Origin: Alphaproteobacteria bacterium
GTDB lineage: Bacteria > Pseudomonadota > Alphaproteobacteria > GCA-002720895
Assembly: GCA_022450705.1 (NCBI GenBank)
Contig: JAKUPP010000005.1
Span: 1 to 48,920, forward strand
Direction: 5' to 3'
DNA: 48,920 nt
The position numbers were made by a program, and so were the translations under genes. Positions 32,733 to 37,466 of this stretch are shown piece by piece. The notes beneath the pieces are model-generated. The model was not told the DNA's origin and did no database searches. It saw nothing but the letters and a program-made list of their open reading frames with translations. How positions within the stretch are numbered: position 1 is the stretch's first letter; every line of letters starts with the position of its first letter.

Positions 32733-33026
32733 ATGAAAAAAATTATCTTCAAAAATACTCTAATTCTTTTTTTATTTTTAACTGTTGGGTGTGAAAAAAG
32801 TTTTAATACTTCAAAATTTAATAAACAAAGTTCAAATTATAAAATTTGTCTAAAAGATGCTAATGATAATATTGAAACAAGTATCAATATTAATCAAGAT
32901 AGGATTGATATGCTTCAAACAGATGATACCATGGTTGATTCATATAATATTGGAAATGATATAGATAATATAAAATTATCAAAAAAAAGAAAAAAAATGA
33001 TTGAAGATTGTATGAAATCAAGATAA
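32733..33026 (+). CDS. Small predicted lipoprotein of unknown function upstream of exbB
   Basis: I do not recognise this 97-residue protein. It has a signal sequence and lipobox, FLTVGC with Cys20. The mature part is hydrophilic, mostly helical in appearance, and contains two further cysteines, Cys39 and Cys93, which could form a disulfide. It starts with ATG and is followed after 23 bases by exbB, on the same strand, so it is probably part of the Ton motor operon. Whether it works with ExbB/ExbD/TonB is inference from position. Its base composition is like the neighbouring genes. Confidence 0.7.
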   Translation: MKKIIFKNTLILFLFLTVGCEKSFNTSKFNKQSSNYKICLKDANDNIETSININQDRIDMLQTDDTMVDSYNIGNDIDNIKLSKKRKKMIEDCMKSR

Positions 33027-33049
33027 TGAACTAATTATTGTGTTTTTTA

Positions 33050-33706
33050 ATGGAATTACTCGAATTCATAAATTTAAATAATCTAAATAATTTAGATTTA
33101 ATATCAAAAGGAGGCCCTGTGATGTTTGTTTTACTGGGATTCTCAATTTTTGCTTTTGCAATAATTTTTGTCAAATTAATACAATTTTTATCTGCTGCAT
33201 TAACTAAAACCAATAAGATAGAAGAAGTTCTTTCTAAACTAAATGGCTCCAATGCAAAAAAACATTTACCTGATATTCAAAAAATAAAAAGTCCGCTAGC
33301 AAGAATTATTGAAGTTGTAATTGTGACAAAAGGAGATAGAAGATTTGATAAAGAATCTAGAGAAGCAGAAATATCTAGGATTATCTCAGTTGAAGTCAGG
33401 GCTTTAGAAAATTATCTTGGTGGATTAGAGGTCATTGCAAGCATTAGTCCTTTGCTTGGATTATTTGGAACTGTTCTTGGAATGATAAAAGCTTTTTTAA
33501 ACTTAGAAAAAGCAGGTTCACAAATAGATCCTGCTCTATTAGCTGGGGGAATTTGGGAAGCGCTGTTAACAACTGCATTTGGACTTGCAATTGCAATACC
33601 GGCTCTAGCTGCTTATCATCTTTTTGAAAATAAAATAAGTAATACCAGAGATAAAATTAACGATGCGGTCGTAAGAACCAATACCCTACTTAATTTTAAA
33701 AAGTAA
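33050..33706 (+). CDS. exbB: ExbB/TolQ-family proton channel subunit
   Basis: ExbB forms the membrane scaffold of the Ton motor, which couples the proton gradient to TonB. The chain has three hydrophobic segments; the region PLLGLFGTVLGMIKAF, then GIWEALLTTAFGLAIAIPALAAYHLFE, is the conserved pore-lining block with the family Glu in IWEALLTTA and two Thr. Length from ATG 33050 is 218 residues; an in-frame TTG at 33038 adds four residues and is less likely. The genes after it are two ExbD and one TonB, not TolA, TolB or Pal, so ExbB fits better than TolQ. Confidence 0.9.
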   Translation: MELLEFINLNNLNNLDLISKGGPVMFVLLGFSIFAFAIIFVKLIQFLSAALTKTNKIEEVLSKLNGSNAKKHLPDIQKIKSPLARIIEVVIVTKGDRRFDKESREAEISRIISVEVRALENYLGGLEVIASISPLLGLFGTVLGMIKAFLNLEKAGSQIDPALLAGGIWEALLTTAFGLAIAIPALAAYHLFENKISNTRDKINDAVVRTNTLLNFKK

Positions 33707-33712
33707 AAAACT

Positions 33713-34126
33713 TTGAAAACTCACAATTTTTATCAAAAAGAAGAAAAAGAACTTATATCTATTAATATTACTCCTTTGATAGATATTGTTTTTCTTTTGC
33801 TTGTTTTTTTCATGCTTGCCACTTCATTTATTCAAAAAAGTACAATTGAAGTAAATTTAAGCAGCGGAGAAACTCTTCAAACCGAAAAACAAAAAAATGA
33901 TGTAATACTAACTTTAAATAAAACGGGTCAGATTTATTTAAATAATAAGTTAATTAATATTTCTAATATTAAAAATGAAATAATTAAAATTATTGATAAT
34001 AATCCAGAACATAAAATTTTAATAAAAAGTCATAAAAAAATAGCTGTTCAAAAAGTAATTAGATTAATTGAAGAAGTTCGTTTAGCTGGAACAGATAATA
34101 TTAAATTAGTAAATTTAGAAAAATAA
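33713..34126 (+). CDS. exbD: ExbD/TolR-family protein, first copy with conserved Asp
   Basis: ExbD threads the ExbB pore and carries the protonatable Asp needed for energy transduction. Here the transmembrane helix starts ITPLIDIVFLLLVFFMLAT, with Asp24 in place. The periplasmic domain contains the usual DVILTLNKTGQIYLNNK and a C-terminal KVIRLIEEVRLAGTDNIKLV. Length is 137 residues. The start is TTG at 33713, six bases after the exbB stop. The last base of its TAA is shared with the ATG of the second ExbD gene. Confidence 0.92.
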   Translation: MKTHNFYQKEEKELISINITPLIDIVFLLLVFFMLATSFIQKSTIEVNLSSGETLQTEKQKNDVILTLNKTGQIYLNNKLINISNIKNEIIKIIDNNPEHKILIKSHKKIAVQKVIRLIEEVRLAGTDNIKLVNLEK

Positions 34127-34524
34127 TGGCAACAAAGAAAAAAATAAAGCAAATAAACTTAATTCCGTTAATCAATATTATTTTTTTAATGTTAATTTTT
34201 TTTATGCTTGCAGGAACTATCACAACAATTGACCCTCATAAAGTGAGTGTTCCTGATTCAATAATAAAAAATGATCCTATAACTCCTTTTTTAACAATTA
34301 TTATAAAAAAAGATGGCGAAGTATTTATTGACAGTAAAAATAGAAAAAAAGAATTACAAAAAAGAAATTATTTAGAAATTTTAAGATCAAGAAAGCCGAA
34401 TGAAGTATCCCTAAAAATAGATTCACAAACACCTTCGGAATATTTTTTAAAAATTTTAAAAATACTTGAAAACGAGAATATAAAAAAAGTAGTAGTAGAA
34501 ACAAATTACGTGCAACAAAAATAA
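34126..34524 (+). CDS. ExbD-family protein, second copy with Asn instead of the transmembrane Asp
   Basis: This 132-residue protein aligns with ExbD over its whole length: a short basic N-terminus, a transmembrane helix IPLINIIFLMLIFFMLAG, and a periplasmic domain with FLTIIIKKDGEVFIDSK. At the position of the essential family Asp, ExbD has PLID (Asp24 in the first copy); here the codon is AAT, giving PLIN with Asn17. No other acidic residue lies in the helix. The gene shares its first base with the stop of exbD and its TAA directly abuts the tonB ATG, so all three are tightly coupled. It may form a mixed dimer with the first ExbD. Confidence 0.88.
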   Translation: MATKKKIKQINLIPLINIIFLMLIFFMLAGTITTIDPHKVSVPDSIIKNDPITPFLTIIIKKDGEVFIDSKNRKKELQKRNYLEILRSRKPNEVSLKIDSQTPSEYFLKILKILENENIKKVVVETNYVQQK

Positions 34525-35178
34525 ATGGAAGAAAAAACAAATATATGGGCTTTAAACTTTGCTTTTCTACTTTCTATTCTTTTGCATATTTATATAATTT
34601 TTTTTCTTACAGGATTTAATGTTAATTTTTTAGATAAGAAAAAGAGAATTACAATAACTTTATCTGCCATTGGTACTATGGATGAAGCTCCTAAAGAATC
34701 TATAAAAAAAGAAAAAATAATTAAAAAAGAAATCCCTGAAATTAAAAAAATTGAGAAAAAATCTAAAGAGAAAGTTAAAAAAAAGATTGATATAAAAAAA
34801 GTTTTGCCTCAAGAAAAATCAATAAAAAAAGAGGTAAAAAAAAGTGCTGAAGGTGGAACAGTAAAAGGAATCGAGGGTGGGGCTTCCAAAGAAATTATAA
34901 ATCAATATGTTACTCAAGTATATAAATTGATAGATTCAAAAAAAAAATATCCAAGACAATCTCTAATAAGAAGGGAAGAAGGTATAGTTTTACTCGAAAT
35001 AGTTATTCAAAATGATGGAAAATTAAAAAGTGTAAAATCTATTAAAGCAAAGTTCCAAAGACTTGTAGATTCAAGTTTTGATGCTGTAGAATTAGCTGCG
35101 CCATTTCCTGTCTTTCCAAAAGAAATAATTAAAAAAAGAATGATTATTCAAGTTCCAGTAATTTACAAAATAAGGTAG
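34525..35178 (+). CDS. tonB: TonB family energy transducer
   Basis: TonB spans the inner membrane and periplasm and opens outer membrane receptors. The 217-residue protein has an N-terminal membrane helix (about 10-30), then a highly charged Lys/Glu-rich linker (about 50-110) instead of the usual proline-rich one, and a C-terminal TonB domain: KKYPRQSLIRREEGIVLLEIVI and DAVELAAPFPVFPKEI match the family (YPxxA, EGxVxVxxxI, PFPPxP). The ATG follows the stop of the second exbD with no gap. No TonB-dependent receptor is in the window. Confidence 0.9.
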   Translation: MEEKTNIWALNFAFLLSILLHIYIIFFLTGFNVNFLDKKKRITITLSAIGTMDEAPKESIKKEKIIKKEIPEIKKIEKKSKEKVKKKIDIKKVLPQEKSIKKEVKKSAEGGTVKGIEGGASKEIINQYVTQVYKLIDSKKKYPRQSLIRREEGIVLLEIVIQNDGKLKSVKSIKAKFQRLVDSSFDAVELAAPFPVFPKEIIKKRMIIQVPVIYKIR

Positions 35179-37079: not shown

Positions 37080-37466
37080 TTATTTGCAATATGCATCGAT
37101 CAATGACTCAAAAATAATTTTTGAAGCATCTTTATTTTCTTTATCCGGATTAAGTTTGACATATTTAATAAAAATATCTTTATGTCTTTGTAAATTTAAA
37201 ACATTAGATAAACATAGATCTGGTAATTCTTTACCATTTTGAGATCTAATCAACTGATAAGTATTAATGGCTGATTGAATATATCTGATACAAGGATATT
37301 CTCTTTTAGCTTCCTGTTGAGCAGCTGTTTCTCCTGGTATCCACGCTTCGCATTCAAATACTAACTCTTTTGCTGTAAATGGATAAGAAACGTTTTTGAT
37401 ATCCTCAGAACGAATAGGATATAAAATTAATGAATAGAAAAATAAATAAAAAATAAAGTTTTTCAT
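37080..37466 (-). CDS. Rap1a/Tai-like secreted four-cysteine protein
   Basis: A 128-residue protein with a signal peptide (about 1-20). The mature part has Cys39 (FECEAW), Cys59 (YPCIRYIQSAINTY), Cys85 (LPDLCLSN) and Cys127 (AYCK). This order, with a central helix ending in CIxYIxxxI and a C-terminal Cys, resembles Rap1a/Tai immunity domains, small periplasmic helical proteins that neutralise type VI secretion effectors. Many homologues occur without any secretion system and have unknown roles. No effector or T6SS gene is visible here. Family assignment is by eye and moderate. It lies four bases after fkbM on the same strand. Confidence 0.55.
   Translation of the reverse strand: MKNFIFYLFFYSLILYPIRSEDIKNVSYPFTAKELVFECEAWIPGETAAQQEAKREYPCIRYIQSAINTYQLIRSQNGKELPDLCLSNVLNLQRHKDIFIKYVKLNPDKENKDASKIIFESLIDAYCK

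Follow-up and report, generated by a model that had tools for sequence, protein, structure and literature searches.

A Ton motor operon with one Asp-type and one Asn-type ExbD, a pairing conserved in alpha- and gammaproteobacteria

In the known Ton motors the ExbB pore encloses two ExbD helices, no more and no fewer (PMC6778125), and Asp25 of ExbD has been reported as absolutely required (PMC12905483). The locus described here raises the question of what a second ExbD does when it has an asparagine at the site of this aspartate. The locus lies in a stretch of 48,920 nucleotides from an alphaproteobacterial contig, called here the window. Four genes follow one another on its forward strand, all of them above the Pfam cut-off: exbB (33050..33706, with an alternative TTG start at 33038; PF01618, 103.9 bits, and alignment to E. 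coli ExbB), exbD1 (33713..34126, TTG start; PF02472, 100.8 bits), exbD2 (34126..34524, ATG start; PF02472, 67.4 bits against a cut-off of 25.4) and tonB (34525..35178; PF03544, 42.1 bits), whose product has the S-x3-H motif in its transmembrane helix (FLLSILLHIY) and a TonB C-terminal domain. This is the order that an earlier note on the same DNA had given, and its reading of the two decisive positions was right in coordinates, residues and codons: GAT at 33782..33784 (+) for Asp24 of ExbD1 (motif PLID), and AAT at 34174..34176 (+) for Asn17 of ExbD2 (motif PLIN). The stop codon of exbD1 is overlapped by the ATG of exbD2 as TAATG, which suggests translational coupling.

The essential transmembrane Asp is present in ExbD1 and is missing from ExbD2, whose predicted transmembrane helix (residues 13-31, 34162..34218 on the forward strand; INLIPLINIIFLMLIFFMLAGT) contains no other acidic residue, as the note had also claimed, and hence no conserved acid that could replace the Asp. 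Acids 7-8 residues ahead of the Asn are common in relatives, and E. coli ExbD and TolR are similar in this; the ExbD2 of the window is without them. By both sequence and fold ExbD2 is a member of PF02472, without the defining Asp of the proton-carrying ExbDs. Its profile matches the ExbD chains in the PDB with a best E of 3.8e-19, the best matches being chains of the E. coli and Serratia Ton motor (6TYI, 7AJQ). Its AlphaFold model has a pLDDT of 73, with the helix at residues 13-31, and the top six matches of this model in a fold search of the PDB were ExbD/TolR periplasmic domains (best E 6.1e-3).

Is the Asn a peculiarity of this genome? In two genomes of the same genus, G001 (where the operon occurs twice) and G004, the Asp/Asn order was found at all three loci, so that the close relatives also have Asn in the second copy. 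The two Asp/Asn (D/N) operons of G001 (contigs C13 and C16, loci L005 and L006) both keep the pairing; they may derive from two strains, the estimated contamination being 6%. When we scanned GTDB with ExbD2 as query, using search peptides that did not span the Asn, 22 loci came up. Asp came first and Asn second in 20 of them, reaching genera as distant as Thioalkalivibrio, Roseospira, Granulosicoccus and Halochromatium, and the remaining two, both from Rickettsiales MAGs, have Asp in both ExbDs. We then ran a profile built from 17 Asn-type ExbD2s over 385 genomes of Alphaproteobacteria, 299 of Pseudomonadota and 369 of Gammaproteobacteria, and inspected the DNA for about 130 of the profile matches. 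Since the survey took in profile matches above set cut-offs, the counts of inspected loci are lower bounds: the Asn-type pair is present in 49 or more of the 385 alphaproteobacterial genomes (a Ser-type pair in at least one) and in 24 or more of the 369 gammaproteobacterial ones (Ser-type in at least two). Most of what the phylum-wide search returned belonged to f184, a high-scoring single-ExbD family that is not related to the pair, and we looked for plasmid-borne relatives of the pair and found none.

Together the alpha- and gammaproteobacterial loci amounted to 106 non-redundant tandem pairs, namely 96 with Asp and Asn, three with Asp and Ser and seven with Asp in both copies. Three of these seven belong to a different ExbD family and were left out of the counts for the family, which refer to 103 pairs. 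The first copy has Asp in 103/103, and the second copy has Asn in 96, Ser in three and Asp in four. Among the 64 non-redundant ExbDs that have no tandem partner, Asp is universal save for one Asn at the end of a contig (L076), which is the only solitary Asn-type ExbD among the non-redundant matches inspected. The frequency of the Asn, 96 of 103 second copies, goes well past what chance would give. Both asparagine codons are in use in the second copies (AAT 43, AAC 53), therefore selection acts on the residue. The note had proposed to check in relatives whether the Asn is a linked trait, and this is what we found: judging by these sequences, the Asp/Asn pairing runs through the whole family of exbB-exbD-exbD-tonB operons in the two classes and is not a local oddity. 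Nevertheless, the Asn is not strictly required, because the four second copies with Asp fall in two lineages. Ser is found at the proton site of the second ExbD in L170 and L184 (PLVSVIF) and in L116 (PLISVVF). These lie on two branches of the tree, and the requirement may therefore be for a neutral polar residue and not for Asn itself. One locus has ExbD1 and ExbD2 as a single frame of 294 aa (L069:1000-1884, +). We did not accept it as a natural fusion: its junction has the look of a frameshift, and in a fused protein the second domain would end up on the wrong side of the membrane.

Regarding the origin of the pairing, we built a FastTree of 276 ExbD domains, which are short, so that deep support is modest. 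The second copies (104) form one clade, with a support of 0.77. Five changes on the whole tree account for the Asp, Asn and Ser states, where shuffled labels need at least 71. Asp gave way to Asn once, at the base of the second copies; the other four changes are two reversions to Asp and two gains of Ser.

What, then, does the second ExbD do? The explanation that we favour, and consider probable from the sequence data, is a form of the mixed dimer that the note had raised: a Ton motor built around an obligate heterodimer of ExbD1 and ExbD2, in which only ExbD1 would shuttle protons. The pore of the ExbB pentamer would hold one copy of each. ExbD1 would carry the proton-binding Asp, whereas ExbD2 would fill the second place with a neutral Asn, rarely Ser, which is in effect a permanently 'protonated' site, and its role would be to leave one active site. 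A heterodimer is the likeliest assembly given that known pores hold two helices, that the two Asp of known motors sit in unequal environments (PMC12965293; PMC12905483), that the D22N change in MotB mimics protonation (PMC9389320), and that the two genes overlap and are strictly paired.

Such a motor would either advance by 72 degrees with each proton, five of them making a full turn, or oscillate; ten equal steps of 36 degrees would not be expected from it. From the constraints set out in PMC9389320 we infer that a strict two-site turnstile with swapped protonation would stall in a D/N dimer, whereas a model where rotation needs both sites to be neutral would run it, at one proton per 72 degrees. 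The turnstile, if it holds, counts against our explanation, and so does the reported need for Asp25. A 2022 review regarded 10-fold rotational symmetry as almost certainly universal, and stated that five ions per turn instead of ten would need an entirely new model (PMC9389320). We therefore put forward only tentatively that this is a natural and widespread 5:2 ion motor with one ion site, which would break the 10-fold symmetry by taking five protons per turn in 72-degree steps or by reciprocating. Current models give the two central Asp equal, alternating roles, and a one-Asp motor kept by evolution would be a natural test of them. In many alpha- and gammaproteobacteria the motor of outer-membrane nutrient uptake probably runs on one proton site, not two. 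Moreover, two distinct chains are built-in labels, with which structures could assign a state to each ExbD that is hidden in homodimers, and a single N-to-D point change in ExbD2 would provide the symmetric control.

In the genomes that we checked for other ExbDs, the D/N set must be the working Ton motor. The genome of the window (79% complete) has three ExbD-type proteins, that is, the D/N pair and the TolR of a separate tolQ-tolR-tolA locus (G000:C25, L001), which has Asp; the operon of the window does not show the tolQ-tolR-tolA arrangement. The same genome has two Plug matches for TonB-dependent receptors, one of them confirmed with PF00593. Exactly three ExbDs are also found in each of seven alphaproteobacterial genomes that are 98-100% complete (G032, G381, G099, G139, G336, G162 and G200), the third always lying between TolQ- and TolA-like genes. 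With TolR as the only other ExbD, the D/N set is the sole candidate to power TonB-dependent uptake in these organisms. In the complete, single-contig genome G032 the sole TonB-dependent receptor divergently adjoins the D/N operon, and a periplasmic binding protein, a Fur-family regulator and a CobW-type protein are encoded nearby.

These genomes bear on another explanation, which we regard as unlikely. ExbD2 could be an attenuator that mixes with ExbD1 at random, leaving some ExbB pentamers with one Asp or none, slow or silent, and thus setting the level of proton flow or Ton activity with no defined heterodimer. Actually, Asn would be expected to inactivate a homodimer if the Asp is absolutely required as reported (PMC12905483), and lineages without ExbD2 exist, as described below. 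However, genes that overlap one to one, arose once and keep a strict order over deep divergence would be a wasteful way to supply a subunit that poisons at random; many genomes have no Ton motor other than the D/N set; and the signature at position 134 of ExbB, also described below, suggests dedicated partners.

The conservation of the helix weighs on a third explanation, which we find less probable still, namely that ExbD2 is a structural or adaptor subunit with a periplasmic task (TonB binding, peptidoglycan binding or gating), standing outside the pore or in separate complexes and having lost its Asp for that reason, while an ExbD1 homodimer moves the protons. A precedent for such a division of labour is Xanthomonas, where exbD2 is dispensable for iron uptake and needed for another output (PMC3551730). 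Nevertheless, the transmembrane helix of ExbD2 is nearly invariant across relatives (PLIN[IV]VFLLLIFFMLAG), which fits the interior of the pore and not a lipid-facing position. Its mean column information is 3.09 bits per column, as against 3.46 bits for the proton-carrying helix of ExbD1, and the periplasmic parts have 1.67 and 1.58 bits per column for ExbD2 and ExbD1 respectively, so the periplasmic domain is the less conserved part of ExbD2. Such constraint is not what one would expect of a helix that lies outside the pore. The note had left room for a structural second copy, and this option loses weight now that the ExbD2 helix proves about as conserved as the proton-carrying one.

The ExbB partner is consistent with the heterodimeric motor in its pore and also carries a signature of its own. 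The ExbB of the window keeps both pore threonines (T148 and T181 of E. coli, in GTVLG and LLTTAFG), and T148, T181 and L145 (E. coli numbering) are invariant in 93 aligned ExbBs of D/N operons. At E. coli position 134, on TM2, the ExbB of the window has Glu, as do 87 of the 92 ExbBs from D/N operons and 4/4 from operons with two Asp-type copies; the residue is acidic in 3/3 with an Asp/Ser pair, and it is Ala, Gly or Ser in the ExbBs of single-ExbD systems. Glu134 is thus found with Asp/Asp pairs too, and therefore tracks the second ExbD and not the Asn. Nested inside the two-ExbD clade of ExbB are 13 gammaproteobacterial operons with one Asp-type ExbD and Ser at position 134 (L186:2532-2942, L188:2488-2973, L165, L168, L169, L173-L179 and L183). 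Two of them were inspected in full and read receptor-exbB-exbD-tonB, with no second exbD. Apparently these operons lost exbD2, and Ser134 accompanies its absence. They also stand against the heterodimer as the sole form, since ExbD1 can evidently work without ExbD2 and ExbD1 homodimers are possible.

The same position suggests a fourth explanation, to which we give a very slim chance: Glu134 could replace the lost acid as part of the proton path, so that the motor would keep two kinds of acidic site. Its distribution agrees with this, including its absence from the 13 nested operons, and the residue lies 14 positions before T148, on what would be roughly the same face of the helix. However, its presence with Asp/Asp pairs does not fit, and it should be nearer the cytoplasmic end of TM2, well away from the middle of the membrane. 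Finally, a sequencing error or local mutation in the genome of the window, for which we found nothing in favour, is practically excluded, since assemblies made independently, and from distant classes, show the same residue.

Among the known systems, the closest is the ExbB5-ExbD2-TonB motor of E. coli and Serratia, which has in common the pore residues Thr148 and Thr181, the ExbD fold, TonB and TonB-dependent receptors. The window differs from it in having tonB in the same operon and two ExbD genes, one without the Asp, which in E. coli is present in both chains. The two-ExbD arrangement itself is known, from Xanthomonas, Stenotrophomonas, Sphingobium and Flavobacterium. Sphingobium SYK-6, Xanthomonas and Stenotrophomonas share with the window one exbB, two tandem exbDs and a tonB, but in the order tonB-exbB-exbD-exbD. 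In SYK-6 Asp25 is kept in both ExbDs (PMC8599685), whereas the ExbD2 of the window has Asn; for Xanthomonas and Stenotrophomonas the comparison covers the gene arrangement. The gliding motor AglRQS of Myxococcus also combines one channel subunit with two ExbD/TolR-like partners, but AglQ and AglS are both predicted to carry the Asp (PMC9389320). The change from Asp to Asn at the proton site, as a mimic of protonation, is known from MotB D22N/D32N and similar mutants of 5:2 motors (PMC9389320). These are laboratory-made and affect both copies of a homodimer, whereas the Asn described here is natural, conserved and confined to one of two subunits. TolQRA of the Tol-Pal system is a homologous 5:2 motor with a single TolR gene, TolA as output and a different operon. 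The note knew of no characterisation of the substitution, and in the open-access literature we likewise came upon no account of a conserved Asn-type ExbD; as far as these papers go, the D/N set is a variant of the Ton motor not described before.

Regarding the gene directly downstream of the pair, a profile identified it as tonB in 74 of 99 loci; in 12 there is another or a diverged gene, and 13 locus sequences are too short to show it. In nine D/N or Asp/Ser operons of one alphaproteobacterial clade (L013:5357-6265, +; L062, L065, L068, L074, L077, L109, L110 and L116) the place of tonB is taken by a gene for a protein with a TonB-like transmembrane helix, a Pro-rich linker and a non-TonB C-terminal domain of about 115 aa, which all nine conserve (phmmer E 5e-82 to 1.5e-32). 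This domain had no Pfam or NCBIfam match in three examples and no PDB match in one. From its sequence, the gene is possibly a new force transducer on the D/N motor.

Two small genes of the window may also be mentioned. One at 37080-37466 (-) encodes a secreted protein that matches the Rap1a immunity protein (PF18602, 41.9 bits). The other, just upstream of exbB at 32733-33026 (+), encodes a lipoprotein-like protein of 97 aa with no family match, and the same gene is found upstream of exbB in the same-genus loci L004, L005 and L006.
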